This document shows, in pieces, positions 7,032-44,604 of a stretch of DNA of 64,000 nucleotides. A model generated the notes under the pieces. That model saw only the letters and a program-made list of their open reading frames with translations, was not told the origin of the DNA and ran no database searches. Positions within the stretch are counted from its first letter, which is position 1; the number at the start of each line of letters is the position of its first letter. Source of the stretch: a virus; the IMG/VR virus record IMGVR_UViG_3300050119_000091, positions 1 to 64,000 of that record. One strand, given 5' to 3'. Position numbers and translations under genes: made by a program.

Positions 7032-7344
7032 TTACCAGCGTCAATTTACCGGGTTGTGCGTCTTCCATCGGGACCATTTCAAAACCGCACATCTTCACTG
7101 GGCCGCGCCGCGCAAGCAGCATGTCGTCGTCCGATTTACCGACGATCTCAACACTCCGCACTACGATGCCCTCATTACACCAGCGGTCGATATCGGCCTG
7201 ATTTGCCAGAATCTTCAGGTCTTTATCTTTCGGGATATTGATTTTCGCGAAAGATGCACGTATCTTCGACGGCGAAATATCCGTGGTTACGTCGATCTCG
7301 CACGGAATCTGAACTTGCGTTTTTGGGTCACTCCATCCTGGCAT
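7024..7344 (-). CDS. Hypothetical protein
   Basis: 106 residues. It overlaps the end of the RusA-like gene by 17 bases, and a strong GGAGG lies upstream inside that gene. The sequence is mixed alpha/beta (TTDISPSKIRASFAKINIPKDKDLKIL). No family recognised. The position between two copies of the RusA tail suggests it entered by a duplication or recombination there. Confidence 0.6.
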   Translation of the reverse strand: MPGWSDPKTQVQIPCEIDVTTDISPSKIRASFAKINIPKDKDLKILANQADIDRWCNEGIVVRSVEIVGKSDDDMLLARRGPVKMCGFEMVPMEDAQPGKLTLVNA

Positions 7345-7867
7345 TGGGGCCTCCTTTCACTATTCTGATTTCAACTTTCTCTTCGCCGTCCGCCACGAAT
7401 ACGCATGGCTCGTGGATCTTCCGACCGTTCCACGTGGAGATGTTGTCATTTCTCATCACGCCTGCTTTTTGCAGCACGTCCATCAGCGTTACATATTTCC
7501 CGTCTTCATCAGACCTTCCAGATCGTACATAAAACGTCGTGGTGACTTCGGGATGATCGACGGGCAGTCCAACCGCCTGCGACCACTGAAACATCGCCTG
7601 GAGCGTCAGTGCTTCCATCTGGGCTTTTGTTTCGGGCGTCGATATCAGCCGCCCACCCTCGGCGGTTCGGTAGTTGCTTTTCTTCGATGGGCAGTGGCCG
7701 TGCAGCACCAGCGTTACATCTACTGGACCATCGAACGTCACTGGTTTTGACTTACGCGATCCGCTGGATAGCGGGCGCGGCTTAAAGCTTTGATTGACTG
7801 ATCCGACTCCGCGAAGATTCTTTTGCAACTCTTCGAACTGAGCCTCTGTGAAGTTCATGCCACTCAT
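7328..7867 (-). CDS. rusA: RusA-family Holliday junction resolvase
   Basis: 179 residues from the ATG at 7867, which overlaps the preceding stop (ATGA). The C-terminal half is RusA-like: SDEDGKYVTLMDVLQKAGV followed by RNDNIS supplies the acidic metal-binding residues expected of the family. RusA enzymes are dimeric nucleases that resolve four-way junctions during phage replication and packaging. The first 60 residues are family-variable. The longer frame to 7957 is a shadow of the upstream gene. Confidence 0.75.
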   Translation of the reverse strand: MSGMNFTEAQFEELQKNLRGVGSVNQSFKPRPLSSGSRKSKPVTFDGPVDVTLVLHGHCPSKKSNYRTAEGGRLISTPETKAQMEALTLQAMFQWSQAVGLPVDHPEVTTTFYVRSGRSDEDGKYVTLMDVLQKAGVMRNDNISTWNGRKIHEPCVFVADGEEKVEIRIVKGGPNARME

Positions 7868-8082
7868 AAATATTTGTCGCGCCCCGGCGAATACCGCCCC
7901 AACGGCTCCAGCCCCTCCCTTTCCAGCGCTGCGTAGTTTCTCGCCATAACCCTGCAAACTGACCCGTCTGAATGGTGGACTTCATCAATCAGTGGCATCA
8001 TGTCGTCGCATTTGGCGCACCCGGCAGTTTCGGTGATTCCTCCGCCGTCTTCGCGCTCACGGATGCTTTTGATTTTGGCCAT
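7864..8082 (-). CDS. Hypothetical small protein
   Basis: 72 residues from the ATG at 8082 (MAKIKSIRERE), with GAGGTGGT just before it; 8112 is an alternative start. It contains a CAKC pair and overlaps the zinc-ribbon gene 7998-8180 by 85 bases in another frame. The stop couples to the RusA start. Confidence 0.5.
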   Translation of the reverse strand: MAKIKSIREREDGGGITETAGCAKCDDMMPLIDEVHHSDGSVCRVMARNYAALEREGLEPLGRYSPGRDKYL

Positions 8083-8452: not shown

Positions 8453-9429
8453 ACCGCAACCTCCGTTAATTCCAGTTGCCCCTGCGACCGTGACTCAATC
8501 GCCGCGTCCAGGTTATCTCCTGCGTTTCGGAAATACGATTCTTTCAATTCGCTTCCCACGAATCGCCGCTGCTCCTGAAGCGCCACATAGCCAGAACTTC
8601 CAATCCCGGTGAACGGATCGAAAACCACGTCGCGGGGATTGCTCCACAACTCAACAGCGCGGCGAATCACCGTTAACTGAAGTGGGCAAATATGCTTGGA
8701 ATCTTCCGCGTCCCGAGCGCCCGCGCGTTGCAGTGTGTCCGATGGGTTGATGTCCATCCAGACTGGTGAAGCGTAGTTCTGCCAGACGTAGTGTGAGTAC
8801 TTGTTTTTCTTCTGGTCCGCGTGGCGCTCCGCCTTTGGTTCGTCTTCCGGATTTCCGATCCACTTCGTCAGACCGCGCGGATGCGCAACTGGCTCCGGAT
8901 TCGTCCCGAGCTTCCGCATGATTACGAGTTGATCCGGAATCCCCTGGCGGCACATGGACGAATCTTTCACTATCTGCTTATGCGCCAGCCCAAGCGCGTG
9001 CGTTCGCGTGGCCGCTATCAGCGGGTCTTTCCATATCGTGACGCGGGAGTGGAAAACAAAGCCGTGCTTCTGAAACGCGCGAATGATATCCCCAGGGAAG
9101 TCATACAGCCCAATAACGCCGTCATGCTCGATGCTGGTCGGAAGCTCCATGCAGTGAGTGGCCACCAGACGCCCCGGCATCATGATACGCGCCAACTCCG
9201 AAAGCATGAAGTCTATGCCGTTGAAGAAGTCGTTTTTGGTTCGGATATTGCTCATATCCTCGGTTGCGTCCGTGTATTGATACAACGAGACAAATGGCCA
9301 AGATGAGACGCAGAAATGTATACTATCTGACGGGATGCCGCGAACCACACGCACGCAATCGCCGTGGTATAGCGCATACTCTTCGGTGATCTTCTGATCT
9401 ATTACGGAGTCAGTGGGTACGGTAGTCAA
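8449..9429 (-). CDS. DNA amino-methyltransferase (N4/N6 type) with altered catalytic motif
   Basis: 326 residues from a TTG at 9429 with AAGGGG nine bases upstream. It belongs to the phage methyltransferase group with motif IV before the SAM motif: DPFTGIGSSG at 271-280 is motif I, and HCMELPTS, DGVIGLYDFPGDIIRAF and KDSSMCRQGIPD are group hallmarks. Motif IV, normally (S/D)PP(F/Y), reads SSWPF at 42-46, so a Trp replaces the first Pro. Activity is therefore uncertain. An HNH gene overlaps its start by 20 bases, so expression may depend on that gene. Confidence 0.8.
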   Translation of the reverse strand: MTTVPTDSVIDQKITEEYALYHGDCVRVVRGIPSDSIHFCVSSWPFVSLYQYTDATEDMSNIRTKNDFFNGIDFMLSELARIMMPGRLVATHCMELPTSIEHDGVIGLYDFPGDIIRAFQKHGFVFHSRVTIWKDPLIAATRTHALGLAHKQIVKDSSMCRQGIPDQLVIMRKLGTNPEPVAHPRGLTKWIGNPEDEPKAERHADQKKNKYSHYVWQNYASPVWMDINPSDTLQRAGARDAEDSKHICPLQLTVIRRAVELWSNPRDVVFDPFTGIGSSGYVALQEQRRFVGSELKESYFRNAGDNLDAAIESRSQGQLELTEVAV

Positions 9430-10195
9430 TGTGTTTTTCCCCTTTTGATTGGTTGCACCGACCGCATAGCGGCTGGATGTTGTCTATATTGTTCGATCCT
9501 CCCATTATGAGAGGAATTACGTGGTCCACCGTGAGCCTAATATCCGGCTCTTTCTTGCCGCACCTTAGACACATAAACCCCGCCGCCATCTTCAATGAAT
9601 CCCACTCATGCCTTGTGTACGCTCCGCCATTCGCCAGTTTCCTAGCCCTCCGAGCGTGAACGTAAGACAATGCCTTGTCGCGATTTTCTTTAAACCACCT
9701 CCGCACCATAGCGTTATGCTTCTCTGGATTTGCGGCGTACAACTCCCGGCTCTTTCGGTTGATGGCATCTCTATTTGCTTCGGCGTAGCGTGCCCACGTT
9801 TCCTTAAATCGCCCCGGGAACTTCTCTCGGCTCTCTTTTTGGCGATTAAGAATGGCCTCTTTGTGCGATTCGTAGTGCCTCTTTTGGTGGGCTGAGAATC
9901 GGGATGGGTTTAGTTTTCGAGCCGCCTTGACCCTATCGGACAGTTCTTTCTTGTGGATTTTCTGATACCTACCCCGGATTGCTTTGGTGGCGTCAGGATG
10001 GTCGCGCCTCCACTGCGCCGAGTAGGCCATGTGCTTTTCTTTATTGTTCTCGTAGTAAAGCCTCTTATCCTGATTGGTACACGAACGGCACTGCGGGAAT
10101 TTTCCGTCGTGACGTGACCTGTCGTTATGGAAGTTGTCTAACGGTTGAGGTGTAGAGCATTTTGAGCACGTTTTTAGGGTTGCGCTGTCAACCAT
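9410..10195 (-). CDS. HNH endonuclease (free-standing homing type)
   Basis: 261 residues. The N-terminal zinc ribbon has CSKC (10-13) and CRSC (about 36-39), a long Arg/Lys/Glu helical middle follows, and the C-terminal HNH has CLRC, TVDHVIPL, GGSNNIDNIQPLCGRCN. GGAGG lies seven bases before the ATG. Both ends overlap neighbours: 22 bases with the helicase and 20 with the methyltransferase. This is how mobile HNH genes are often wedged between phage genes. Confidence 0.85.
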   Translation of the reverse strand: MVDSATLKTCSKCSTPQPLDNFHNDRSRHDGKFPQCRSCTNQDKRLYYENNKEKHMAYSAQWRRDHPDATKAIRGRYQKIHKKELSDRVKAARKLNPSRFSAHQKRHYESHKEAILNRQKESREKFPGRFKETWARYAEANRDAINRKSRELYAANPEKHNAMVRRWFKENRDKALSYVHARRARKLANGGAYTRHEWDSLKMAAGFMCLRCGKKEPDIRLTVDHVIPLIMGGSNNIDNIQPLCGRCNQSKGEKHIDYRTH

Positions 10196-15421: not shown

Positions 15422-15618
15422 TTCGGACCTTCCGGCAACGGCATCCAGTGAGACAGTTCGGATTCGCGCCATCCGTTTTTGTCTGAATAAAAAACATACT
15501 CCCGCTTCGTCGCGTTACTGAAGTGAACAATGAACGCCGTTTCCTCGATCCAGTCCCATACGAGAAAATCCGTGCCATCGTGCGGGGTTGTCGCTATCGG
15601 TTGCCACTCTCCAGTCAC
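15418..15618 (-). CDS. DUF551-like protein
   Basis: 66 residues from a GTG at 15618 that overlaps the stop before it (GTGA) and has GGAGG seven bases upstream. WQPIATTPHDGTDFLVW at the start and LSHWMPLPEGP at the end are the DUF551 pattern. The family is widespread in phages and its function is unknown. Confidence 0.7.
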   Translation of the reverse strand: MTGEWQPIATTPHDGTDFLVWDWIEETAFIVHFSNATKREYVFYSDKNGWRESELSHWMPLPEGPK

Positions 15619-16046
15619 GCCGAAACCTCCGCATCCCGTTTCTGCATCCACAACGAATCAGGCTTGATGGTCCCAGTTAATAAACCAAGCGTTGCGTAAT
15701 CCGAAATCAAAACTTCTTTCGACCTGACAACCCAGTACGAGAAGAACGTTTTCTCGCCTTTCTGGAGTGCCTTTTGACCTGTCCGGTGCGCGCTGTCGCA
15801 CATCGGCACGGCGGTTTCGTCCGGGGCTTTTTGGCCGCGCCCGCGATTTCCCAGATGAGCCGCTTCAATTCGGCGGCTGCACGTGTGGCGCGGATCTTCA
15901 GACAGAACGCATTCCAGGGAGCGAATCAGATCTAGGTGCGCTTCGTTTGGCGGTATCCCGCCTGATCGGACAATCTTCCGGCGCTTCGGCTTGAAAACCC
16001 CGCGCGCTATTCCGTTCCAGTTTGTAGTTCGCGGGGATGTCTTCAC
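15615..16046 (-). CDS. DUF968-like HNH-fold protein
   Basis: 143 residues from a GTG at 16046 with GAGG close upstream. IEAAHLGNRGRGQKAPDETAVPMCDSAHR is the DUF968 core, an HNH-type fold with His/Cys ligands. DUF968 proteins are common in phage replication regions and are thought to be nucleases. Residues upstream of 16046 are a shadow of the MazG-like gene. Confidence 0.6.
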   Translation of the reverse strand: MKTSPRTTNWNGIARGVFKPKRRKIVRSGGIPPNEAHLDLIRSLECVLSEDPRHTCSRRIEAAHLGNRGRGQKAPDETAVPMCDSAHRTGQKALQKGEKTFFSYWVVRSKEVLISDYATLGLLTGTIKPDSLWMQKRDAEVSA

Positions 16047-16053
16047 GGACGCC

Positions 16054-16389
16054 TCATTTCCGCAAGTGCCCGCTCCATCCGTGTCGAACCGAAACCTCAT
16101 CGAACTTTGCGAGGATTACGGATTCTGTGTTCGCCTGAAGCGCAGTAATCATCAAGTCTGCGAAGCAGATCACGTCCGCCAGTTCTTTCAGGAGTTCCGC
16201 CCGCTTTTCCGTTTGCGGCAGCTGGCCCTGTTTGACTCGAACGAAAACCTGATTCACTTCGCCAACTTCAGCCGCTAGGGCGTGCGCCCAATCGTCCAAG
16301 GTCCAGTCTTTCAATTCTTCGCGCCATACTTCCCGGCACCGCCGCGCGTTGACTTCCTGAAAGGCGTCGAATGTCATGCGTTGAGTCAT
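16054..16389 (-). CDS. MazG-like nucleotide pyrophosphohydrolase
   Basis: 111 residues. ALAAEVGEVNQVF, ELLKELADVICFADLMI and KFDEVSVRHGW follow the MazG/all-alpha NTP-PPase pattern: ExxE, then ExxD metal sites. These enzymes hydrolyse NTPs or dNTPs to monophosphates and are used by phages to shape nucleotide pools. It sits between short genes with four-base overlaps. Confidence 0.75.
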   Translation of the reverse strand: MTQRMTFDAFQEVNARRCREVWREELKDWTLDDWAHALAAEVGEVNQVFVRVKQGQLPQTEKRAELLKELADVICFADLMITALQANTESVILAKFDEVSVRHGWSGHLRK

Positions 16390-17011: not shown

Positions 17012-17200
17012 TCACTGGCGCGTCCGGGTGGCTTTCGCTGGCACATGGGGGGGGGAATCGGCCCCGGCGCGTTCTTGGGCTATTTGCGCGTCGATCTGAC
17101 ATAAAACCTCAAGCAAGGCCATCGCGGTTTCTTGCTTCCCGACTGATTCAGCCCCGCAAATGTGAACTTTCAGAATTATTTTGCAATCTTCGACGGTCAC
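17012..17200 (-). CDS. Hypothetical small protein
   Basis: 62 residues. The ATG overlaps the helicase stop (17197-17200), which supports translation. VEDCKIILKVHICGAESVGKQETAMALLEVL looks like a small folded domain; the tail is basic and Pro-rich. No family recognised. The run gggggg at 17047-17055 lies near its end. Confidence 0.5.
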   Translation of the reverse strand: MTVEDCKIILKVHICGAESVGKQETAMALLEVLCQIDAQIAQERAGADSPPHVPAKATRTRQ

Positions 17201-18543
17201 TGGATATCCTCCGCCGCTGATTCAAATCTGAGTTGGTTAGCAAGAAACACAAGCGGCACTTTCCCGGTTTGTCCGTCACGCTGCTTGCCGATGATTAAAT
17301 CTGCCACCCCGCGCAAGTCTTCGCGGTCGCGGCAATGCGCGTACATCTCCGGGCGGTGAACGAAAAGAACGAGGTCTGCGTTTTCTTCGATCTTTCCGCA
17401 TTCCTTCAGGTCCGGGAGTCCTGGCTCACGGCGTTCTTCTTCGCACTTGCGGTTGAGTTGGGCCAGCACAACAAACGGAACGTCCATATCGCGGGCGGCT
17501 CTTTGCAGAGCGTCCGCAATTCGGTTGTACTTGATTCGCTCTTCGCGCTCCGGGCCGTCGATCAGGTGGAAGTGATCTATCACCACGAGGTCAATCACGT
17601 TTTTGGATTTCAGGTATCGCAGCGATGCCAGAATCGACGCTGCCGTTTTACCGCGCCTCTGTTTCGATTCGATGTGAACCGGAAGTGTTTCAATGATCGA
17701 CCTGGTTTCTACGAGCTTCGTCCGCTCGTTCAGATTCAGATATCCGAGTTTCATCCGGTGTGCGTCGATGCGACCCTCTTGCGCGACCTCGCGCCGCACA
17801 AGCGACGCCCCACTCATTTCGAGCGACACATAAGCTACGCCGAAATTCTGTTTCGCTGCGTGGGTCGCAATCTGCATTGCGATGGCAGATTTTCCCATCG
17901 ACGGACGGGCGGCGATGATTGTCAGTTCGCCTTTTTGCATCCCGCATGTAATTTGCTGCACACGCGGCCACGGAAACGGAATCCCGGCGTAAGCACCGGC
18001 CGTCGATGGCGAAATAAGGGCCTGCCATCCCCCAGGAAACTCGCGAATGATATCCGTCGCTAACTTCCATTCGGGATCGTCACCGTTCGTGTCGATATCC
18101 TGCGCCGCCGATATCAGCGATGCGATTACGTCCGACGATTCTTCCTGGTCCGATAGAAATCGATTCATCGCCTGCTGGCAGAGTAAAGCGCCGCGCCGTC
18201 GCGCTGATTTTTCTCGGACCATCGAAACATACGAATCGAAATTCGGGAGAAGTGGCATCCCTTTTTCAAGTTCCAACAGGTGACTCAGCCATTCGTAATC
18301 CGAAGGGTCTGTTTCCCGGAGTCTATTGCAAACGGTTACGTGGTCGATTGCCGATTCCGATTCCGCCAAAAACTCCATCGTTTGCCAAATTCTCTTATGT
18401 CGATCCATCGCGAAATCATCGACTGTCAGCTTGTCCCGAACTTCCGAAAAGCAATCCAGTCCCCGCATTAGCAGTTGAGCCAACACCATACGCTCAGAAT
18501 CTACGGCCTGTGGCAATCCTCGTTCGAGTTCTTCTGGGTTCAT
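17197..18543 (-). CDS. dnaB: Replicative DNA helicase, DnaB type
   Basis: 448 residues, the usual DnaB length. The N-terminal domain spans about 10-110. Walker A is ARPSMGKS (212-219), SLEMS follows at 240-244 and Walker B is LVVIDHF (319-325). Later, LAQLNRKCEEER, DLKECGKIEENADLVLF and KQRDGQTGKVPL are DnaB motifs including the arginine finger region. It unwinds DNA at the phage fork. It lies seven bases after the iteron-bearing initiator gene, the classic initiator/helicase pair. Confidence 0.92.
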   Translation of the reverse strand: MNPEELERGLPQAVDSERMVLAQLLMRGLDCFSEVRDKLTVDDFAMDRHKRIWQTMEFLAESESAIDHVTVCNRLRETDPSDYEWLSHLLELEKGMPLLPNFDSYVSMVREKSARRRGALLCQQAMNRFLSDQEESSDVIASLISAAQDIDTNGDDPEWKLATDIIREFPGGWQALISPSTAGAYAGIPFPWPRVQQITCGMQKGELTIIAARPSMGKSAIAMQIATHAAKQNFGVAYVSLEMSGASLVRREVAQEGRIDAHRMKLGYLNLNERTKLVETRSIIETLPVHIESKQRRGKTAASILASLRYLKSKNVIDLVVIDHFHLIDGPEREERIKYNRIADALQRAARDMDVPFVVLAQLNRKCEEERREPGLPDLKECGKIEENADLVLFVHRPEMYAHCRDREDLRGVADLIIGKQRDGQTGKVPLVFLANQLRFESAAEDIQ

Positions 18544-18550
18544 TTTCGAT

Positions 18551-19405
18551 TTAGTCCTCTGGTGGTTGTAGCGGTTGAATTACTTGGTATTTCGATTTTT
18601 GGTCTTCGGTTGGAGTGCGACCGTTTGCTTGTGGTTTGCGTGGGGGGCGTTTCCATGCGCCGTTTTCCAAATACTTCGGGAGCCTGGTAACAAATCTGCA
18701 ATCCTCGCCCGCTTCGATTCTGGCCTGTAGTCTTTTTGTGGCATCGAGTTTCTGTTCAAAGTCGAATTTCTTCCAACTGAACATCCACGCCTGACTCAGG
18801 TCTTCTTCGATCAGGTCACTTCCCCAGAACCGAGTAGCCGCAAGCACGAAGTGCGAGAAGGACTCATCGGATTTGTAGTTTCCGTAAGTGCCGTTCTTAG
18901 ATTCTTCTGTTTTAAGAGATCTACCGTTTACAGAAGATTCTTCAGATATAGAAGAAGAATAAGATTTAGATCGCGCATCGCGCGCGAGAGGTGTGACGCC
19001 TTGTGACGCATCGTGACGCGATGTGACGCCATGTGACGCGGAGTCTCTCTCTCTTTTTTCCTGCATCCTTAAAGTTGAAGACGGTTGTCGTTTATCGAAA
19101 TTTGTCAACAAGTTACCAGAAATCATCTTGCGCCACCTGAAGCCGTCAATGACGGTCTCCACGTCTTTATCCGGCAATCCAGTGGCGACGGAGATGTGGT
19201 CAATTTGGACGCCCTCAATGGAACCGCGCGGACTACTTTGGGAGGCGAAATCCAGCAACCAGACCCAAATTGCAGCCACGTCCGATAGTCGTATTTCAAG
19301 TGACTCAGGGTGACGCGATGTGACGCGATGTGACGCGATGTGACGCAGGACGACTTGATACTTAGGGTCTGTTGCGATGCCATGATAGGCTCTCCACCAG
19401 TCCAT
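18551..19405 (-). CDS. Replication initiator (O/DnaD-like) with built-in origin repeats
   Basis: 284 residues. The N-terminal ~100 residues resemble phage replisome organisers (LEIRLSDVAAIWVWLLDFAS, IEGVQIDHISVATGLPDKDVETVIDGF, a winged-helix pattern). A Ser-rich linker follows (about 125-165), then a DnaD-like region (AWMFSWKKFDFEQKLDATKRLQ). The DNA for residues about 20-36 and about 122-140 is the two 10-bp repeat arrays, so the gene both encodes the initiator and contains its likely binding sites, as lambda O does. DnaB follows directly. The initiator role is inferred from this context. Confidence 0.7.
   Translation of the reverse strand: MDWWRAYHGIATDPKYQVVLRHIASHRVTSRHPESLEIRLSDVAAIWVWLLDFASQSSPRGSIEGVQIDHISVATGLPDKDVETVIDGFRWRKMISGNLLTNFDKRQPSSTLRMQEKRERDSASHGVTSRHDASQGVTPLARDARSKSYSSSISEESSVNGRSLKTEESKNGTYGNYKSDESFSHFVLAATRFWGSDLIEEDLSQAWMFSWKKFDFEQKLDATKRLQARIEAGEDCRFVTRLPKYLENGAWKRPPRKPQANGRTPTEDQKSKYQVIQPLQPPED
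18896..18970. other. AT-rich candidate unwinding region
   Basis: This stretch is clearly AT-richer than its surroundings and directly adjoins the iteron array at 18991-19040. It contains the inverted repeat TCTTCTGT/ACAGAAGA. An AT-rich segment beside iterons is the arrangement of lambda-type origins; unwinding here is inferred. Confidence 0.45.
18991..19040. repeat. Iteron array A: five 10-bp repeats
   Basis: Five in-register units: GTGTGACGCC, TTGTGACGCA, TCGTGACGCG, ATGTGACGCC, ATGTGACGCG. The invariant core is GTGACGC. The 10-bp period places every site on the same helix face and is not a multiple of three, so the coding frame cannot explain it. Probable initiator-binding sites of the origin. 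Confidence 0.75.
19299..19348. repeat. Iteron array B: five 10-bp repeats
   Basis: Units AAGTGACTCA, GGGTGACGCG, ATGTGACGCG, ATGTGACGCG, ATGTGACGCA in 10-bp register, with the same core and orientation as array A about 260 bp away. The outermost unit is degenerate (CTC for CGC). Two arrays could allow looping by the initiator. Confidence 0.75.
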
Positions 19406-20616: not shown

Positions 20617-21450
20617 CTATCGCTTCCGTGGGCGGATCTGATTTCCCTCAAAATCCTCATTAAACTTTAGAAGATTGATGTGTCTTTGTGTTGGGTCATA
20701 TGACCTGTTGATCGCTTCGGCGCGGAGCACTTCAACCGGCTTTCCCGCTACGACTGAGGGGTAGTCCCGGTAGGCGTTGCCAACTGCGGCCCAAACAGAA
20801 TCTTTCATATTTCCAAAAGTTATAACGTCTTCGGGGTTTTTCGGATCGAAGCCAAGCCCAGGAATCGTCGAGATCAAATTCGGGCACTCTTCCGAGATCA
20901 AAAGCAGCGGAGTGCTTCGCGGGTTTACGGTCGCCTCAACGGGATTCACGGGCGGATTTTCGCCGCGAATCACGAGACTCTGGCGCAACCCGTCAAACAC
21001 CATGCGCGCAGTCGCGATTCGGGAATTTGGGCCGTCGTCCGTTTGACGCAACTTCGGTATCCCGGCAGGTACCGTCACTTCGTCGATCAGATTATGAATC
21101 GCCCGCATTGATCCGTGACCTTGCGCAAACACCGCGTTCCCGCCATAGAATCGACTCAGGTGCGTTCGTTCCGGCTTCGGCGTGGCATCGACTATCATTC
21201 GTGCCAGTTCGTGCTCTGGCGTCAGTTCTTTGACTAATTCGCGGTAGAAAATAATCAGGTCGAGTGGGTATGTGACGTTCGCGCCTAAAATCGTTTGCGC
21301 TTCGCGTGCGGTGATCTGACCGTGGCAGGCCCACAAGCAGCAGGCGTGCGACCTGAAGCCCCAATGCAAGGCGCTCCAGGTGGTCCACCAGTTTCGCGTG
21401 AGGCGGTCGATATCCTTCACGGCGACTTCGGTTGATAGTGAGGTGTTCAT
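20617..21450 (-). CDS. terL: Terminase large subunit, nuclease part
   Basis: 277 residues from the ATG at 21450. It begins where TerL linkers begin: DRLTRNWWTTWSALHWGF. The first nuclease Asp expected in this motif (DWGF or DYG) is His29 here (CAT rather than GAT). The end has LISEECPNLISTIPGLGFDPKNPEDV, the usual third nuclease motif region. It is translated by ATGA overlap from the ATPase gene. Nuclease activity is therefore in doubt unless another residue substitutes. Confidence 0.75.
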   Translation of the reverse strand: MNTSLSTEVAVKDIDRLTRNWWTTWSALHWGFRSHACCLWACHGQITAREAQTILGANVTYPLDLIIFYRELVKELTPEHELARMIVDATPKPERTHLSRFYGGNAVFAQGHGSMRAIHNLIDEVTVPAGIPKLRQTDDGPNSRIATARMVFDGLRQSLVIRGENPPVNPVEATVNPRSTPLLLISEECPNLISTIPGLGFDPKNPEDVITFGNMKDSVWAAVGNAYRDYPSVVAGKPVEVLRAEAINRSYDPTQRHINLLKFNEDFEGNQIRPRKR

Positions 21451-22487
21451 CGCAGCACCACGCGCTTCTGGTCCCATGCACCGCTGAAATATTGTCCTGC
21501 GAACTGGTCGAAACGCCCAAATAATTCGCCCATGCGGATGTTATCCGGCTTCGCCCACATCTTTTTCCCTTCTGATGTTTTAGTAACGAATATTTTGAAG
21601 CGCTGGTGATCGTCGATTGAGTCGAGCCACGCTCTGTTGTAAATTCCAGATGGACACGGCGGCAAATCCCCAGGGAGCGAGTAGAAAAATTCTTTTGTTA
21701 ACGGAACCCCGTCCAGTATGATGTTTTCGTTAGCGTGCCAGCCGTGCCAGTTGTCCCACCCAAAACCCTGTAAAAATGCATAATCACCCGGCACTTCCCG
21801 TTCAAGGTCGTAGTCTTTTTTGAAAAATACGCGCTCATGCCAATCCGATCCCGGCCCCCCGGGATTGAATCCGTAGGCGGTTTTAGCGCCACCAGGTCCA
21901 GCAGCGGGCCATCTATTTGGCGTGTGAAGTTCCTCTAATTCTTCCGGCGTGAACCCCTCGGACTGGTCGATCATCACCAGGAAAATATTCGGGCCGCGCG
22001 TGAATCTGCGAAGGTCTTTGAATGTATCGCCGTACCCGAACGCGATGCGCGGGTATCCCATTCCAATAGGGAATGAGAAATCTTTTGTCCGACCGTCCCA
22101 CCAGTCCATCATCGGAAGGTGTTCGCGTTCCCATTCCTGGAGATGGTTTTTTTCGCAATCCCCCCAAACTTGACGGACAATGTAGATCACGATCCCTGGT
22201 AGGTATTGCGCAACCTCGGACGCAACCACCAGTGCGGCATCGCGAAGCCCGCGCGACTTGGCCGCTCCGCGACTGCCACCGTACCCCCACCGGACTGGAA
22301 TATCAGGGCCGCGAGCCAGTAACCCGTCAATCAGGATTCGTTGCTTGGGTTGCGGGTCAACGCGAAAAATAACCGCATCGCATTTGCACGAAAGTCGTTC
22401 GTGATCGGTTGGCTCCTTGCATATAGCACAACGCCCGAAGTAGTCAGTCGTAAAGCCGCGCGAATCAGCAGCAGAAGATCTAGCCAA
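21447..22487 (-). CDS. terL: Terminase large subunit, ATPase part
   Basis: 346 residues from a TTG at 22487 with AGG six bases upstream. A small Cys cluster lies at 20-36 (CAIC, then CKC). Walker A is GYGGSRGAAKS (68-78) and Walker B IFLVMIDQSEGF. FGWDNW and FAGQYF mark the end of the ATPase domain. The motor domain stops at the linker and the nuclease follows as a separate gene. Both lie opposite to the structural genes. The frame upstream of 22487 is antisense to the HNH gene. Confidence 0.8.
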   Translation of the reverse strand: MARSSAADSRGFTTDYFGRCAICKEPTDHERLSCKCDAVIFRVDPQPKQRILIDGLLARGPDIPVRWGYGGSRGAAKSRGLRDAALVVASEVAQYLPGIVIYIVRQVWGDCEKNHLQEWEREHLPMMDWWDGRTKDFSFPIGMGYPRIAFGYGDTFKDLRRFTRGPNIFLVMIDQSEGFTPEELEELHTPNRWPAAGPGGAKTAYGFNPGGPGSDWHERVFFKKDYDLEREVPGDYAFLQGFGWDNWHGWHANENIILDGVPLTKEFFYSLPGDLPPCPSGIYNRAWLDSIDDHQRFKIFVTKTSEGKKMWAKPDNIRMGELFGRFDQFAGQYFSGAWDQKRVVLR

Positions 22488-22516: not shown

Positions 22517-22555
22517 TAAAAAGAGGCCCCGTGCTGCGGAAACAGCAACGAGGCC
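22517..22555 (-). terminator. Hairpin with T-run upstream of the terminase
   Basis: A 31-nt stem-loop at 22525-22555 (GGCC, CGT, GCTG paired with their complements, loop CGGAAA) is followed leftward by TCTTTTT. On the minus strand this is a textbook intrinsic terminator; on the plus strand the same hairpin sits in the leader of the HNH gene. Confidence 0.6.
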
Positions 22556-22563
22556 AGCAGGGA

Positions 22564-22580
22564 GCGCCAATGGAGGGCGC
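22564..22580 (+). promoter_or_regulatory. Hairpin enclosing the HNH Shine-Dalgarno
   Basis: GCGCC (22564-22568) can pair with GGCGC (22576-22580). The Shine-Dalgarno GGAGG (22572-22576) lies in the loop and first stem base. Translation of the HNH gene at 22585 may be held down by this hairpin, as known for T4 homing nuclease genes. Confidence 0.5.
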
Positions 22581-22584
22581 AACG

Positions 22585-23163
22585 ATGCGACTTAAGTATA
22601 GGCCAATACCTACATTCACCGAATCTGAAATAGCCGCATTCTGGTCTTTGGTTGACAAAAGAGGCCCAAAAGAATGTTGGCCGTGGATCGGGCGACGACA
22701 CACTCGCGGATATGGATTTTTCGACGCCAATAAAAACTATCGATCCTTGAGGTCCACCAGGGTTCTTATTAAAATCGTCACAGGGAGTGACCCTGGAAAT
22801 AACGAGGCTTGCCACTCGTGCGACTATCCGCCATGCTGCAATCCAGACCATGTGTTTGCGGGAACACACACGGATAACATGGCGGATATGAGTGCCAAGG
22901 GAAGGGCAAATGTCCGACGTGGAAAGGACCATCATTTTTATGGCCGTCCCGACCTTATGCCCGCTCACAGCGGGTGGCATCCAGCTATCGACCTGGCCGG
23001 GGAGAAACACCCGCGATCTAAACTTACGGCGGACGATGTGCGAAAGATTCGCGAGATGGGCGATCAAGGGACCGTGATCCATGCAGAGATGGCCCGCATG
23101 TTCAAGGTGTCGCATAAACTCATCGTCAACGTACTTTTGCGCAGGACATGGGAGCACATTTGA
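22585..23163 (+). CDS. HNH endonuclease (homing type)
   Basis: 192 residues from the ATG at 22585, eight bases after GGAGG. ECWPWIGRRHTRGYGFF, then ACHSCDYPPCCNPDHVFAGTHTDNMADM is the phage HNH core with zinc ligands. The C-terminal part (KLTADDVRKIREMGDQGTV, AEMARMFKVSHKLIVNVL) is a DNA-binding NUMOD-like helix-turn-helix. It lies divergent from the terminase, so it may target that gene. Confidence 0.85.
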   Translation: MRLKYRPIPTFTESEIAAFWSLVDKRGPKECWPWIGRRHTRGYGFFDANKNYRSLRSTRVLIKIVTGSDPGNNEACHSCDYPPCCNPDHVFAGTHTDNMADMSAKGRANVRRGKDHHFYGRPDLMPAHSGWHPAIDLAGEKHPRSKLTADDVRKIREMGDQGTVIHAEMARMFKVSHKLIVNVLLRRTWEHI

Positions 23164-26429: not shown

Positions 26430-26908
26430 CCCACGAAGCGATGTCGGAAAAAGATCGACATGAGTGGCTGGATTCTCAAATCCGCAAAGGCGGTGCTGTA
26501 TTCTGCCCGTGGTGCTCGGGATTGAATCGTCCCGGCGAAGAATCAAATCCATGCTGCCAGCCGTTCGCGTTTGCGGTTCAGGAGCGCGCCGCTGGATTGA
26601 TGAGTAACTTCGCTAACCAGTACACCGCCGTCGAAGTTGGTATGTCTTCGTCGATCACATGCCCGTGGTGTCACGAAGTAAATCGAGCGCCCGCGCCAGA
26701 ACATCCCGCAGATTGGAAGCGGCCAAATTCATCGCCATTCTGCTGCTCGATTTTCGATCACGCGCTCGCAGCGCACCTGGAAGTAAAGCGCGTTAAGTGG
26801 CTGGTTCGTATGGCCGATAAGATCGCAGAGAATCTGGACAAGGGCATTAGCGTGCCAGTGGCTCAGGCGTGCGGAATGCAGTTGCCCACAACAGGAACCG
26901 TCAATTGA
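26426..26908 (+). CDS. Protein with two CPWC zinc ribbons
   Basis: 160 residues. Two similar modules: FCPWCSGLNRPGEESNPCC near 25-45 and ITCPWCHEVNRAPAPEHP...FCC near 77-107, each with CPWC then a second CC pair, i.e. two zinc-binding repeats. C-terminal helical region follows. Overlaps the portal start. Function unknown; possibly head assembly. Confidence 0.6.
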   Translation: MTHEAMSEKDRHEWLDSQIRKGGAVFCPWCSGLNRPGEESNPCCQPFAFAVQERAAGLMSNFANQYTAVEVGMSSSITCPWCHEVNRAPAPEHPADWKRPNSSPFCCSIFDHALAAHLEVKRVKWLVRMADKIAENLDKGISVPVAQACGMQLPTTGTVN

Positions 26909-29328
26909 GTCCATCGGTCGGCTACCCTACTACCGAATACGAAGAATCTGAACCCGCGCCACCTACGGTAGTTCCTGATTATGGCGACGGCTACAGGAAT
27001 CTACCTGAACAACTAAAGCGAGCGCTCATGGATTGCTTCAAAAAGGCACAATCCTGTGAGAAATTCATACGCCGTCAGGAAGTTCTTCAGGACGCAAAGA
27101 TCCGTTTCTACGACATGGGAATCCAGCATGTCTACCTGAACGGAACTTACGCATGGACGGCTGGCGTTGCGGGCGGATCATACGCCACCGGGCCTAACTC
27201 CAAAAACTACTTCAGCGAATACTTGGACGATTACCCAATCCTGCCGGCGTTCGGCCAGATCATTCGCGCGAAACTATCAGAGCACGATCCGTCCGTAGAT
27301 TTCCAGCCGGATGACCAGAGCGATACGAACGATCTTGAGGCCGCGAAGGCCGCTGAAGGGATGCGGCACGATTACGACCGTAACAACGACGTTAAATTAC
27401 TCCAGCAGCAGATCGTCTACCACTGGGAAATGGGCGGCAGATGCGTCGTATGGACCCGTAGTGAAGACGCGCCGCCCCGGTTCGGAGATGTGGCAGGCAA
27501 CCCGCCGCGACACGTTGTATCGACCGCATACGGCAGCATTGAGGCCAAGGTTCCGATCTTCGCCAACACAACGCGCCAGTGCGGGTATTGCATTCTGTAC
27601 GATGACCCGGATATCCAGGAAGCGAAAGAGCAATACGACTGGATAGCCCACAAGCTCGACGCAGGCCAACAGTGCGCGGATGAAAACGCATACGAGCGCA
27701 TAGCGCGTCTTGGAATCATTCAGAATTCAGCGGGACGCAGTTATGGCTGGAACATCGGCGATGCGGTAACCCATCTGATCGGACGCGGCAATGGGTTCCT
27801 GAGAACGAATCGCTTTCAGGGTTACGATGACGCATTTGAAGAAGCCACGGAGTCAGACGTAAATCCAGACGGAACTGTTCTGACAGTCGGGGAAAAACTG
27901 AAGCAACTGTACCCCGATGGCGCTCACATGGTCGTAGTTGGCCAGGAGTACGCTTGCTCCTACAACAGGTGCATGGACGATTGCATTTCAATCTCCCATC
28001 CCTACATCGGGAAAGGCCAGCAGAGAATGCCGATCCTTTACCCGATGATCGTAGTTCAGGACCGCTTCAATCAGGGAATGAATCTGATTGCGGAATCGCA
28101 GGATCACTTGGTTCCGTCAACGTGGATCGGGTGCGCGGCAACGGAATTCGCGGCGATCACAAAGCAACGCGCAAAGCCCGGAGCATTCCGAAACCTGAAA
28201 GACATGCCCAGTGGCGTCCGAATTCAGGACGTACTGTACCGCGAGCCGGATTACCAGATTCCAGCGAGCGCGATGCAGTTTCTACAGTTTCTTGACGGTG
28301 CCCTCCCTGAGTTTATGTTGGCGTGCCCTCCTGCTATGTGGGGGCAAAGTATGCAAGATAATAAAACGGCCGCTGGCTTGCAACTCGCCGCCGCTCAGGC
28401 AATGGGCATCATGGGCGCATTGTGGGATATGCAGGTTCAACAGTTCACTGAAATATATCGCCAGAACTGCATAGCCATTATTTCGGACGAAAAATACGCG
28501 GATCAGGTTATCACGACAAACGCGCGCGGGTTGCGTGAGGTTGTCGAAAAAGGTTCACTGACAAAAGGCAAGTTCCGATGCTTTGCCGATAAAGATTCCG
28601 GATTCCCTGAATCAACGAACTCAAAAAGGCAATCCATGGAGCGACTGGTTGGGCTGCTGGCTCCGACCCCGCTCGGTACGCAAATCATGGGAGCGCCGGA
28701 TAATGCGGCGGAGTTGGTCCGGCTCAGCGGCGTCAATCTGGTTATCCCGGAAGCGGAAGCGCGAAACAAGCAACTTCGCGAAATCGAAAGTCTCTTGGCG
28801 CAAGAGCCTGTCATCGGTGACCCGATGATTCTGGCGATGTTGCGATCCGGCCAGAAAGTTCCTGACATCATCATGGCTATTCAGCAAGCCAGAAACACGA
28901 TGATGCAGGCGTATCAGGCGGGGTTACAGCAACAGCAAATCCAGCACGCGGGGCAAACTATCGCATCGCAGGCAATGGGAACCGCCGCGCCGCCCGCACC
29001 AGTTCCTCCGCCACCGCCTGACCCATCGACCATTGCGAAATCATCCGTTCCGATTTGGCCCTCAGACTTTCATCTGTACGAAGCCACGAAATGCCAAGAC
29101 TACCTAACGTCCGACCAGTGCAACACGGAACTGATAATCGGCAAGCCGTCACCCGATCCGGCGATGAATGGCGAGATGGTTCCGAATAACGCAGGCGTGT
29201 TGAATGTATTTTTGCACTGGAGCGAGCACGTCGCCGCGATCCCGGCAGCGCCGATGCCTGCGCCGTCTGGTCCGCTGCCAGCCGTGGGCAGTCCGCCCAA
29301 GGTAGCGCCTCAGCCAGCCGGAAGTTAA
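26905..29328 (+). CDS. Portal protein
   Basis: 807 residues from a TTG at 26905, whose codon overlaps the previous stop, with AGGA eight bases upstream. It has the length and pattern of the portal of podo-like phages: KAQSCEKFIRRQEV, DYPILPAFGQIIRAKLSEHDPSVDF, YHWEMGGRCVVWT, TRQCGYCILYDDPD, and a helical Gln/Ala/Met-rich C-terminal crown (about 660-720). It forms the DNA-entry ring at one capsid vertex. Position ahead of scaffold and capsid genes agrees. The Pro-rich tail is variable. Confidence 0.75.
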   Translation: MSPSVGYPTTEYEESEPAPPTVVPDYGDGYRNLPEQLKRALMDCFKKAQSCEKFIRRQEVLQDAKIRFYDMGIQHVYLNGTYAWTAGVAGGSYATGPNSKNYFSEYLDDYPILPAFGQIIRAKLSEHDPSVDFQPDDQSDTNDLEAAKAAEGMRHDYDRNNDVKLLQQQIVYHWEMGGRCVVWTRSEDAPPRFGDVAGNPPRHVVSTAYGSIEAKVPIFANTTRQCGYCILYDDPDIQEAKEQYDWIAHKLDAGQQCADENAYERIARLGIIQNSAGRSYGWNIGDAVTHLIGRGNGFLRTNRFQGYDDAFEEATESDVNPDGTVLTVGEKLKQLYPDGAHMVVVGQEYACSYNRCMDDCISISHPYIGKGQQRMPILYPMIVVQDRFNQGMNLIAESQDHLVPSTWIGCAATEFAAITKQRAKPGAFRNLKDMPSGVRIQDVLYREPDYQIPASAMQFLQFLDGALPEFMLACPPAMWGQSMQDNKTAAGLQLAAAQAMGIMGALWDMQVQQFTEIYRQNCIAIISDEKYADQVITTNARGLREVVEKGSLTKGKFRCFADKDSGFPESTNSKRQSMERLVGLLAPTPLGTQIMGAPDNAAELVRLSGVNLVIPEAEARNKQLREIESLLAQEPVIGDPMILAMLRSGQKVPDIIMAIQQARNTMMQAYQAGLQQQQIQHAGQTIASQAMGTAAPPAPVPPPPPDPSTIAKSSVPIWPSDFHLYEATKCQDYLTSDQCNTELIIGKPSPDPAMNGEMVPNNAGVLNVFLHWSEHVAAIPAAPMPAPSGPLPAVGSPPKVAPQPAGS

Positions 29329-31464: not shown

Positions 31465-31664
31465 CCCAATCAGATTTAATACGTAGACGGAAACACGCAC
31501 AGGCAGCGGTTCCAGCACGCCCATAATCGGCAAACGGAACCCGTCAACGAGCAGTACAGAGTAAGCGTTAAAAGCCGCAAGCAGGCGCACATGCTGGCCC
31601 AATAGGGCGAAGGTTGCACGCGAATCTGAAGCGAATCAAAAATTCAATTCAGGGAGAGTGCGTC

Positions 31665-32918
31665 ATGCCTGTTGGGAACAACAGTTCGGCCCTAGCGGCC
31701 CAAAAAGAAGTTTTCAATACCGATTTCGTTGTCGAGTTGATGAATCTGGAATCGGTTTTCTACCCGAGAATCAAAGAAGACACAGAGATTAAGCCCGTTT
31801 CGACGCGCCCGTCGCGCATCGCAACTCAGCCGATCACGGGCGGAAAACTCCGCGTGTACGGCGCTGACGGCCAGAAGATGGGCCGTGGATCAGGGCCGCA
31901 GGAAGTCTTCGGGTATATTTCGTGCGCCAGCTACCTCCAGGCGTCCGAATACACCGCCCAGGCTCAGTACGGCACGGACTCCGCCGCGAAGTCGATCAAC
32001 AACTACGTCAGTATGACCCACGAACAGGCGTTTAAGACGCTTGGCGGGTACATGGACGTGTTCGGCAAGATGGACGGCTCCAATACCATCGACACCGTTG
32101 TATCGACAACCACGAACGGAATCCTGGTCAACAACGCGAACCTGTTCCAGTCGAACCAGACCATTGATATCTGGTCCGCGCTCGGCGGCACTTGCCGTGG
32201 CTCCGTCGAAATCGAAACGGAAGATTCGGACACCAACACCCTCTGGACGACGACCGGACTTCCGGCTGGCACAACTACGGGCGACCTGCTTCTGGTTTCC
32301 GGCTCAACCGGTACGGCGAATTCCGGATACTTCGGTATTTTGTATTACGCCGTCAATACGAACGTCGGGAACTACCTCGGTATCCCGCGCGCATCGTACC
32401 CCGGTCGGTACACGGCCCAGGGAATCAACCTCGGCGGACAGTCACTAACGCCCGCTGCGGTCCGAGCAGTACAGGTGAAGTTGATCAATGCGATGGGCGG
32501 CAAGGCTGCGGCCAGTGTTGATTCCGTGGCCTACTGCACGCCTGCGATGCAGCTTGCCTGGGAAAACAACGCTACTCCAGTCCAGACCATCGTGGCGCAA
32601 GGCACGAGTACGGACACGTCCCGCGACATGCTCCCGAAAAACATGCCGACGATGATCGGTGGCAAGCCTATCCTTCCGGGGACGCGCGCCATTCCGGGCC
32701 GAATCGATATTTTCGATTTCAACAACTTGTCCCGCGTCACCAGCAAAGCTGTGGATTATTACAGCGCCGGGGGCAATACGGAATTTCCGGTGGTGGCAGA
32801 TGACGGATCGATCCAAAGCTCGAATCTGTTCTACGTCGTGTTTCAGGAGAATTTGGTAAACCGGAATTCCAGGGAGTGGACGTTTTTGTCGAATATTGCC
32901 GTCCCCAAATACCTTTGA
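31665..32918 (+). CDS. Major capsid protein candidate
   Basis: 417 residues from the ATG at 31665 with AGGGAG upstream. Begins NSSALAAQKEVFNTDFVVELMNLESVFYP; KTLGGYMDVFGKMDGSN and GIPRASYPGRYTAQGINLGG are typical of a P22-like/HK97-fold coat group. Near the end, GRIDIFDFNNLSRV and FQENLVNRNSREWTFLSNIAVPKYL. Position after portal, scaffold-like and decoration genes supports the call. It has its own promoter-like box and long leader, fitting high expression. Confidence 0.75.
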   Translation: MPVGNNSSALAAQKEVFNTDFVVELMNLESVFYPRIKEDTEIKPVSTRPSRIATQPITGGKLRVYGADGQKMGRGSGPQEVFGYISCASYLQASEYTAQAQYGTDSAAKSINNYVSMTHEQAFKTLGGYMDVFGKMDGSNTIDTVVSTTTNGILVNNANLFQSNQTIDIWSALGGTCRGSVEIETEDSDTNTLWTTTGLPAGTTTGDLLLVSGSTGTANSGYFGILYYAVNTNVGNYLGIPRASYPGRYTAQGINLGGQSLTPAAVRAVQVKLINAMGGKAAASVDSVAYCTPAMQLAWENNATPVQTIVAQGTSTDTSRDMLPKNMPTMIGGKPILPGTRAIPGRIDIFDFNNLSRVTSKAVDYYSAGGNTEFPVVADDGSIQSSNLFYVVFQENLVNRNSREWTFLSNIAVPKYL

Positions 32919-32948: not shown

Positions 32949-33782
32949 ATGCCAGCCAAGGGCGGACATCAGTCCGAAGAAGCGAAAGAAGCAATCAGGG
33001 CGTACCACAAGGGCCGAGAGTTTTCCCCGGAGCATCGGGCGAGACTCTCGGCTTCTTTACGTGGGAAGAAGCGCGCCCCGCGATCCGAAGAGACAAAAAG
33101 GAAAATCAAGGAGGCATGCTCTGGACAAAAACGCACCCCTGAGCAAATAGAGAAAAACAGGGTGTCGCATTTAGGGCAACCCAGTGCACGCAAGGGGGTG
33201 GTGCTATCTGAAGAAACCAAGCAAAAGATACGGGATGCACGAGTGATCCAGGGGAATCCAAAATTCAATCTTCGGGGCATTACTCAGGCTCAGGTAGATG
33301 AGGCCACCGCCAACGGGTTGCGGTGGTGTGCTGGGCAATGCAAGGCATTTATCCCGCGAGAGAGGTTCTATAAAAACGGTGAAACCAAGAGGACGGTATG
33401 TTCCTCATGTGGGCTTTCATGCAATCGCACAATGGGGCGATCTGGAGTCTATAAAAAATATGGAGTCACCGAAGAGTGGTATCAAGTTACCTTATCATCC
33501 CAAAACGGCCAATGCGCTTTGTGTCCAGCGGTGGTTCCTCCAGTTGATATGGCAGCGCCATCAGGGAAAGGGAAGCATCACTATCTATCAATTGACCATG
33601 ACCACGAAACAGGTAAGGCTAGGGCGCTCTTGTGTTCCAGGTGCAACTTGGCGCTTCATCGGGTGGAGTATGTCGATGGGTGGGCGCAGCGGGCTGTTGA
33701 GTATCTGAAAAAGCACGGTAGCCAGATTGGCAAAGAGCGCAAGCGATCTCCGGAACCTCAGTCAACGGTGGTAAGATTATGA
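32949..33782 (+). CDS. Endonuclease VII-like HNH nuclease with NUMOD repeats
   Basis: 277 residues. Three to four NUMOD3-type repeats come first (SEEAKEAIRAYHKGREFSPEHR, SEETKRKIKEACSGQKR, SEETKQKIRDARV), then the catalytic domain: QNGQCALCPAV, LSIDHDHETGKARALLCSRCN. No Shine-Dalgarno; GGCATT (32926-32931) and AATGCC (32948-32953) form an inverted repeat covering the ATG. It sits right after the capsid gene. Confidence 0.85.
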   Translation: MPAKGGHQSEEAKEAIRAYHKGREFSPEHRARLSASLRGKKRAPRSEETKRKIKEACSGQKRTPEQIEKNRVSHLGQPSARKGVVLSEETKQKIRDARVIQGNPKFNLRGITQAQVDEATANGLRWCAGQCKAFIPRERFYKNGETKRTVCSSCGLSCNRTMGRSGVYKKYGVTEEWYQVTLSSQNGQCALCPAVVPPVDMAAPSGKGKHHYLSIDHDHETGKARALLCSRCNLALHRVEYVDGWAQRAVEYLKKHGSQIGKERKRSPEPQSTVVRL

Positions 33783-38898: not shown

Positions 38899-38925
38899 AT
38901 GGCCCAAAACACCGCATCTCCAGAT
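38899..38925 (+). repeat. Right flanking copy of the tail-gene start
   Basis: First 27 bases of the tail gene. Matches 38066-38092 except at two positions. Together they flank the 806-bp segment with the minus-strand genes. Confidence 0.7.
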
Positions 38926-41900
38926 TCGCATGAAATCCCGATAACCGTCTTTGGCGGACTTGTCACGTATATTGATCCGACAAGTCTGCCAATGGGAGTC
39001 AGTCCCGATTGTTCGGATATGCAGTTCACTCCAGGCGGAACGTCGAGCCGGGACGGATTTAAGAAGCACTTCGCGGCCCCGCTTTACCCCACCGAAACCC
39101 GCACGTACCAAAAATCCTACGTTGACCCAAGGGGTACAATTTTCAATCTGTATTTCTACTCCAACGGTGCGTTGACAGTCGAGAACGTCACGACAGCGCC
39201 AGGAGTAGAAACGCTTCTCAGTCAAACGTCAGCGCCGGGATCATGGGCGAAATCTTCTACTGCGTTTGGGCGCGAGTACATCGCAATCTCAGACACATTG
39301 CACGGCGCGGAGATCCCGCTTCAGTTCGACGGCGTAAATCTCGATAGGGTGACTCAGGACGGGCCGGGTGCTTCTCCCAATGTCTCAAGTGTCCCGATCC
39401 CTGCCGTCGCTATGGTGGCGTCAGGAGCGCCCGTAGTGTTGAACCTGACGGAGTCAGACCCCAGAGGCGGAGACGGTTCGGGTTACTTTACCGCGATTGA
39501 TATGTACACCATGGATTCGGTGGCATCCGTCAATATAGGCGACCAAATCACAATTGCGGGGTACGGTGGCGCTCCTGCTCCAATGAACGGAACGTGGCCG
39601 GTATTGGCGATATTTCTCAGTTCCGGATCTCCTGGAAACCTGATTCAGCTTTCGGCGTATCTGCCGCCGACTACGGTATCCAGCGTGGCATCGGCGACCG
39701 GGACGGTCGGCGGCGGAACGACGATTCAGCGGGTCAATAATCTGGTAACGGTGACCACGGCGGCGGCGCATCAGCTTCAGCCGGGATACCAGGCGCAAAT
39801 CACAGGGATGCCAGCCGCATCTGTAGGCACGTCGATTTCATCCGTGGTAGTGAATAACGAAGACCTGCCGGGTCTGGCGACAGTGACGACATCGACGGCA
39901 CATGGCCTGGTTCCGCAATTACAGGTCAGCTTGGTGGGTATTGCAGGTACAGCAGTCGGCGGCGGCATTACTTCTCTGTCAAGGCAGGGGCAGATAGTGA
40001 CCGCCACGACGGCTACAGCGCACGGGCTGACCCCTGGCGCAACCGTCACGATAGCGGGAGTTGCAAACGCCAGTTTCAATAGCACGGTGACAGTCTTGAA
40101 CGTAATTTCCGCGACGGTGTTCACCTATATTCAGGTGGATGTGGACGCCACTGATTCAACGGGAACTGCCACTCTGAACTGGCCGATATTCAACACTCAA
40201 ACACCTACGTATTTCGAGGTAGTTTCGGCCCCAACAGCGACTACATTCCAGGTCCAACTGGACTATTCGGACGGATCATGGTCAGGCGGGACGGTCACAT
40301 ATGCATGGGATGGGACGTTCTTTGTTCAGGACGTGCCGGGGCCGACATCGTTTACGTACTTGCAATACGGCCCGAATGCGACGAGTTCGACGGTTGGAAG
40401 CGTAACGCCCTATGGCCAGGCCGCGCCAGGCAAGCGGCAGATGGTTTGCTTTTTCATAACCAGGCAGGGCTACACAACGAGATACAGTCCACCCGTTCCC
40501 GTAGTTACGAATGGCGGCCAATATCTCAGTGTGACGAATATTCCGATAGGGCCGTCGAATATAATTGCCCGCGTGCTGGCATTCACTGGCGCGGAGGGGG
40601 CGTATTTTTACTGGATTCCCGCACCGCCCCAAGTCAACGGGCAGTTGGTTGGGACATCGACGATTATCAACGACAACACGACAACCAGCACCATTCTGGA
40701 TTTCAGCGATCCGACTTTATTTGCGGGGCTTGGAATTTCAACCGCAGGAAATAACCTTGCAAATCAGACAGTCATTGACGGTGCGCTTGGATTTGCGCGG
40801 TACGCCAGCCGCCTGATTACTTACGGGCAGAGAAATAACATTCAAAATTTGCTGAACATGGGATTCGATGGTGGATACCTGCCAGCGGCTCCGACGCTGC
40901 CTGCCGGGTGGGCAGGCGGCGGCGCGGGAACGATTGCGGCGGGTCACTACGGCAGCGGATGGACCACGAGCGCTACGCCCCTTACTCAGTCGTTCTACGA
41001 AGATTTCAGCGGTGCCCCGATTGCGATCGGAAACACGGCGTACACGTTCAGGGCGTGGGTAAGTGCGGCGGGAACGGTCACGGCAACAATCAGCAGCATT
41101 GAGGGTAGTTTCACGAGTACGGCCACGCTTACTGCATCGGCGACGGGATGGTATGAGTATATATTCAGCCTGAAAACCCCTGTGAGCATACCCGACGATA
41201 TGCTGATTGGCATAACAGGCTCGGGCGTGATTGTCGATGAGATGAGTATTGTTTTCACCGACACCCCATACGCGACAACACTACTCGGATCGTACGTGAA
41301 TAACCCGGAAGCGTTCGACGGAGTTTCCGGCAGGTTCGGTCCTGTCGATGACACGCATCAAACGCTGGCGCTCGGGATCATCCGAAGTAATCTGTACTTA
41401 CTGACCCAGGATCCAAGTGGGCGAATGCACCAAACATCCCAGGGGGACACTGAACCTTCAGGATGGACCGTTGACGAGGTAGGGCAGAATTGCGGGACGG
41501 TGTCCGCGTTCTCGCTCACGGTTTCGCAGGCCAATGACAATACAGGGGGCGGCGGCGAAGAATGGTTTGCGTGGTATTCCTCATCTGGTCCGCGAATATT
41601 CGGCGGAGAGTTCCCGTTCAAAATTGCCCAGGAGATCATGCGGCGCAAAGGACGGGTTCCGCCCGGATCGCCAGATGATTTATCGAACATCAACACGGCG
41701 GCGCAAACGACCGTTTGGGGCCTGAACGACCCCATCGCAAAAATCATATATTTCGGCGTGCCGATGAATTCCGCGACCGCGCCAAGTAACGTCTGGATGC
41801 TGAATTATCTTGGATGTGAAACGGCGGGAGAGATCGCGTCTCAAGATCCGGTCCATCGCGCAATAAATACGGGCAAGATGATCGCTAACGACCTTGGGCG

Positions 41901-44220: not shown

Positions 44221-44604
44221 GTGACCACCAGACCACTCAAGCCATCCGACATCCCGATTCTTCAGGAGTTCGCGCGGCAATCGTCTTTTCCCTATCCCCA
44301 ATTGGACCATCCGCATATTGAGTCTGTTCTGGTGGTGGTGGATTCAGACGACAGGCCAATCATGGCTTGCGCGGCAAAGAGGCTGGTGGAACTGTATTTA
44401 TTTGTAGATCCATCACGGGCTTCTGGCGTAAAAAAGAACGCTATCGACGCTCTCCACCACGGTATGGCCACGGCGCTACGTGGGAAACTGTACAATAGTG
44501 CAGAGATATATCTGAGTCCGCTGATAGCAAACGCTTTCGGTCGGCGATTGGAGCGAACGTGGAACTGGGTACGCAACTGGCCGAGCTGGCACCACGGCCT
44601 CTGA
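44221..44604 (+). CDS. GNAT-like acetyltransferase family protein
   Basis: 127 residues from a GTG. VELYLFVDPSRASGVKKNAIDALHHGMATALRGK, then NAFGRRLERTWNWVRNWPSWHHGL, matches small phage GNAT-like proteins found beside tail-fibre genes. Their substrate is unknown. It is overlapped by the HNH gene by 46 bases. Confidence 0.6.
   Translation: MTTRPLKPSDIPILQEFARQSSFPYPQLDHPHIESVLVVVDSDDRPIMACAAKRLVELYLFVDPSRASGVKKNAIDALHHGMATALRGKLYNSAEIYLSPLIANAFGRRLERTWNWVRNWPSWHHGL

Follow-up and report, generated by a model that had tools for sequence, protein, structure and literature searches.

In the 64,000-nucleotide stretch of viral DNA analysed here (the window), the large terminase gene, terL, is divided into two overlapping minus-strand genes, and we consider it likely that they specify a packaging motor of two proteins, a derived form in which the nuclease-fold subunit is vestigial and DNA is cut by a different nuclease. 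The first gene (21447-22487, 346 aa) carries the ATPase half. The second (20617-21450, 277 aa) carries the nuclease-fold half, a vestigial RNase H-like subunit that has lost its catalytic aspartates. That this loss affects the split nuclease halves of both phages in which we find the division was absent from the first-pass annotation of the window. Both genes are TerL by descent. Since the two domains do not share one chain and the catalytic residues are gone, we class the pair as a TerL-derived two-protein motor and not as an ordinary TerL.

Organization of the divided terL gene

The ATPase ORF opens with a TTG at 22487, preceded about 7 nt upstream by an AGG, and its product ends in ...AWDQKRVVLR* with a TGA stop at 21449-21447. 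The nuclease ORF begins with an ATG at 21450-21448 and its stop codon ends at 20617, so that the two genes are linked by an ATGA stop-start overlap (21447-21450, minus strand; assembled junction, within 21400-21520: CGATGAACACC). We built a TerL profile from eight one-piece relatives and searched it over the whole 66,779-base virus record. It matched the ATPase ORF along positions 22-308 of its 567 (E 2e-95) and the nuclease ORF along positions 307-558 (E 1e-54), with no third match on the record outside these two ORFs. These complementary matches bear out, coordinates included, the first-pass annotation's reading of a terL split by an ATGA overlap at the domain boundary. Such E-values exclude chance as the source of the TerL matches, and only 4 of 20,000 composition-matched random sequences kept 277 codons open.

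The ATPase half has the motifs of an N-terminal ASCE ATPase, namely a Walker A (GGSRGAAKS, with Lys78-Ser79 in P0004 numbering intact at 22254-22259, minus strand), a Walker B (MIDQSE), an NPG motif (FNPGG) and a lid region. Its AlphaFold model (pLDDT 87.6) retrieved the TerLs Sf6 gp2, D6E and P74-26 as top Foldseek matches, and tblastn against phage records found terminases, annotated as such or not, at 26-29% identity. Against PHROGs and Pfam this half gave no relative (only a non-significant C1_2 hit, E 0.33), nor did it when scanned as a single protein against viral_contigs. The terminase families PF03354 and PF03237 matched nothing on the record, a silence that we attribute to the divergence of the TerL here and not to its absence. 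At the N-terminus, a zinc-ribbon-like CxxC...CxC extension occurs both in the window (about 22379-22430, minus strand) and in the one-piece TerL of the sister phage (L104:7548-7720) (CAICKEPTDHERLSCKC; CPNCKKPIRRGEIRCAC). The Walker B of the window (21957-21968), like that of most of 47 relatives, has the form hhhh(D/E)Q(A/S/G)E where DE would be usual, and with such a DQxE-type motif the position of the catalytic glutamate in this TerL family may be shifted by two residues towards the C-terminus.

Scanning IMG/VR with an alignment of the window ATPase half and the locus L006 yielded 61 loci. Among the closest relatives was L043, on a 20,046-base contig (3300036830_000113), where terL is likewise split. 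It shares 51% identity with the window in the ATPase part and 43-44% in the nuclease part, and its ATPase ORF ends in GSWDERKMVLR*, which places the break after the same codon. There, the ATPase stop forms an ATGA overlap with the start of a gene for a DUF5131 protein (Pfam PF07505; L043:600-1326), and this gene in turn overlaps the start of the nuclease gene as GTGA, so that the terL halves lie about 720 nt apart. From the GQY to the WW motif there are 36 residues in the window and, with only the terL parts counted, 32 in L043; 19 of the 47 one-piece relatives have 26 (range 20-31 over all of them).

Could an ordinary one-piece terL look split here because of an error in sequencing or assembly? 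Contig frameshifts do occur in the collection, as in the ATPase region of L095 (4962-6508, apparent; the neighbour L075 is intact) and in the DUF5131 gene of L043 itself, where profile positions 2-86 and 99-243 fall in two frames. However, L043 breaks after the same codon and carries an entire gene between its two parts, and the window linker, which exceeds that of near fused relatives by about ten residues, is not what one base lost or gained in a fused gene would leave. A slip would also leave the loss of catalytic residues, described below, unaccounted for, and we regard it as highly improbable. Programmed -1 frameshifting or readthrough, yielding a fused TerL besides, has no better claim. 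The nuclease frame is indeed open upstream of its start, as had been noted, with a further ATG nine codons up at 21477 and 30 open codons reaching 21540, but the 31-codon overlap contains no X XXY YYZ slippery heptamer, and L043 cannot make a fusion by shifting frame because the DUF5131 gene separates its halves. Thus, of the two products proposed in the first-pass annotation, the pair of separate proteins is supported and the -1 frameshift product is not.

An intein or intron at the split site was considered and rejected, the junction consisting of ordinary stop and start codons; an Rfam search of the window and L043 found no intron and no RNA of any other kind. Apparent terL inteins do exist among the relatives (L066:2928-5486; L088:2223-5030 and L089), one at the catalytic Asp of motif III (DVLD/C...HN/CLRYG) and one inside the Walker A loop. 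In the TerL of cyanophage Mic1, inteins interrupt both domains (PMC7156551). The coding sequence is interrupted in Mic1 as in the window, but the Mic1 inteins splice out to leave one protein, whereas the window has two genes.

We know the split from two members, both uncultivated contigs, one of which ends inside the ATPase. Searches with three alignments, and further ones in samples taken at order, class and phylum level around the genome that carries the one-piece relative L101, returned no third; the matches in those samples were long one-piece frames or partial sequences. Another kind of terL break was observed in L006:1910-3454, L063 and L081:4842-6420, which are in one piece at the domain boundary and have a stop just before motif III. 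The remainder lies in a second ORF starting MWLIA..., joined as TAA-ATG in L006 and in another frame in L081. All three also lack the motif II Asp (GPIGPE).

A nuclease fold without its catalytic residues

The second gene had been called the nuclease half, a name that holds for its predicted fold, though not for its active site. An AlphaFold2 model from a 34-row alignment reached pLDDT 88.9 and pTM 0.85, with low confidence in the first six residues. VIA-align placed this RNase H-like model closest to the D6E TerL nuclease (Z 16.4 over 163 residues, rmsd 2.4), followed by P22 (15.1) and SPP1 (14.4; model residues 6-231 against 246-413), then by G20c, RB49, Sf6, HK97 and HCMV in that order, with resolvases lower at 8 to 9. 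By sequence, the nuclease half found no relative in PHROGs, in Pfam or, searched alone, in viral_contigs, and none among isolated phages, where the portal and capsid likewise had none; PDB sequence searches were empty.

At the catalytic positions, an alignment with 47 one-piece relatives (32 of them recounted) gives a different picture. Motif I has His29 in place of Asp (LHWGF; 21364-21366, minus strand), where L043 has Ser. Motif II has Ala106 for Asp (GGNA against SPDA, GHDA and similar in relatives; 21133-21135), where L043 has Asn, and motif III has Ala221 for Asp (20788-20790), where L043 has Gln. All 47 one-piece relatives have the Asp of motif I and the second Asp of motif III, and neither of the two split members has either. 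The motif II column is less strict, since 5 of the 32 recounted one-piece rows have neither D nor E there, mostly because a DPSC or DPST is displaced by 1-2 residues. The Arg-Tyr that follows motif III is also gone from both split members, while the first acidic residue of that motif, Asp217, is kept in both. With its catalytic aspartates replaced, the nuclease half very probably does not cut DNA and is probably catalytically dead. The replacements differ between the two split members (H/S, A/N, A/Q), which fits a relaxed active site better than a new one. Between the window and L043, identity is 45%, pN 0.37 and pS 0.78 (saturated) over 264 codons of the nuclease half, against pN 0.33 and pS 0.80 in the ATPase part; both halves are under purifying selection.

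The intact fold, this purifying selection and the retention of Asp217 would all suit a nuclease that is still active through shifted or alternative metal ligands, in which case the pair would be a two-protein terminase with both activities. We consider this unlikely, because the motif I and III aspartates that are invariant in 47 one-piece relatives have become non-acidic residues (H/S and A/Q), motif II is likewise replaced (A/N), and the neighbouring Arg-Tyr is lost. Also unlikely, to about the same degree, is that the pair is a relic, or a set of repurposed early-operon proteins, and that packaging depends on a different terL beyond the assembled record. In favour of this, the pair points with the replication operon, its nuclease is probably dead and the gene is divided, and something may be missing from the record, which is linear and 66.8 kb long against 68.7 kb in the sister phage. 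However, the ATPase motifs are intact, both halves are under purifying selection, the pair sits next to the virion module at the place of the one-piece terL of the sister phage, and a second TerL was not found on the record. The packaging motor is our preferred reading.

Phylogeny and genome context of the split

The proposal to look for relatives with a one-piece terL was fruitful, as 47 were found, including L104 (contig 3300037156_000058, 68,691 bases), whose undivided TerL is 611 aa long. A tree built from 36 ATPase sequences joins the window and L043 in one group (support 98/76) that arises within the one-piece TerLs and has L104 as its sister (100/99). Given this nesting, the split is a derived state, for which a single origin is enough. 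Another one-piece relative, L101, sits in a genome of the Bryobacterales (Acidobacteriota), a faint hint at the host.

The genome combines features of both neighbours. With the L104 phage, the window shares a virion module (portal-like protein 33%, capsid 43%, and 50% for a 1186-aa protein at 38899-42459), and with the L043 phage it shares the replication module (DnaB 59%, exonuclease 49%) and the split terL. The split terL adjoins the virion module, and in the sister phage (G002/L104) the one-piece terL has the same position. The structural genes are on the plus strand (portal-like 26869-29328, capsid 31614-32918), and the first-pass annotation was correct that both terL genes run opposite to them. 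The reason is that the pair heads the replication operon (17197-19405, minus strand), with an initiator at 18551-19405 and a DnaB helicase at 17197-18543 downstream of the terL pair, as in L043. The replication arrangement of L043/L184 is the same as that of the window. Thus terL points with the virion genes in the L104 phage and, in both split phages, with the initiator and DnaB, upstream of them.

A proposed two-protein motor and candidates for the cutting enzyme

We propose that terL split, most simply once, at the linker between ATPase and nuclease into two overlapping genes, which the ATGA overlap probably couples in translation, holding both proteins in balance. The first gene encodes a full packaging ATPase whose motifs are intact, and both proteins may come together at the portal to form the packaging motor, with the second acting as a non-catalytic DNA-binding or motor-regulating subunit similar to what has been suggested for the C-terminal domain of phi29 gp16. 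Concatemers would then be cut by another nuclease. Indeed, if the phage makes concatemers, as its DnaB-type replication genes suggest, and the nuclease half is dead, cutting must happen elsewhere. Stopping just short of calling it probable, we tentatively suggest that pumping and cutting have been genetically separated, with the ATPase and a dead clamp or regulator subunit on one side and cutting passed to another phage nuclease, such as an HNH-like or RusA-like protein, on the other.

Each half matches, by profile and predicted fold, the respective domain of the TerLs of D6E, Sf6 (gp2), P22 and SPP1 (G2P), from which the window differs in having two genes and in having lost the catalytic residues of the nuclease. 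The nearest functional parallel is phi29 gp16, a packaging ATPase whose C-terminal domain is a vestigial RNase H-like nuclease without catalytic residues, and for which a non-catalytic DNA-binding or motor-regulating role has been proposed (PMC7672431). The window, too, keeps a packaging ATPase and an RNase H-like domain devoid of catalytic residues, but gp16 is a single chain whose fold is reduced and which serves a protein-primed, unit-length genome, whereas the window encodes the domain at full size as a protein of its own and has DnaB-type replication genes. In phi29, the unit-length genome explains the dead nuclease domain. In the subset of window ORFs that was scanned, we recognised a DnaB-type helicase and neither a terminal protein nor a protein-primed polymerase. 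The likeness to gp16 is one of function and not of descent, given that the window sequences group with ordinary TerLs. We found no clear precedent in the literature for a TerL encoded by two genes, an absence that weighs little with many journals beyond reach.

A candidate for the missing cutting activity, put forward with reserve, is a small HNH-like protein (15615-16100, minus strand; phrog_131, E 2.5e-4; 40% to L184 6002-6364). It and a RusA-like protein (7328-7957, whose L184 homologue matches phrog_34 with E 0.007) are common to both split phages and were not found in the L104 phage. In HK97, according to the account of Kala et al. 2014 given in PMC9410871, a separate HNH protein, gp74, has a share in the cutting at packaging. 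HK97 TerL has the classical one-piece structure (PMC9410871), whereas the nuclease half of the window looks dead, and a packaging role for an HNH protein here would follow only the precedent of gp74.

The TerL nuclease domain has been described as universal in tailed phages (PMC7824862). If the packaging-motor reading is true, a separate dead nuclease subunit beside an intact one-piece sister would be a natural experiment on what, other than cutting, the nuclease domain contributes to the motor, and on the coupling of ATPase and nuclease domains that are not tethered.

Four HNH/endonuclease VII type genes are scattered over the window (9410-10195, minus strand; 22531-23163, 32949-33782 and 44559-45035, plus strand) and are probably homing endonucleases. 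One of them (22531-23163) is divergent beside terL, next to the ATPase gene; it resembles a free-standing homing endonuclease, and neither of the two compared contigs contains a relative. Elsewhere in the window, an ORF on the minus strand (61340-62320) contains many tandem GTATAGDSG-like repeats, and after the virion genes a plus-strand ORF (54204-55349) encodes a class 3 lipase domain (Pfam Lipase_3, E 9e-16).
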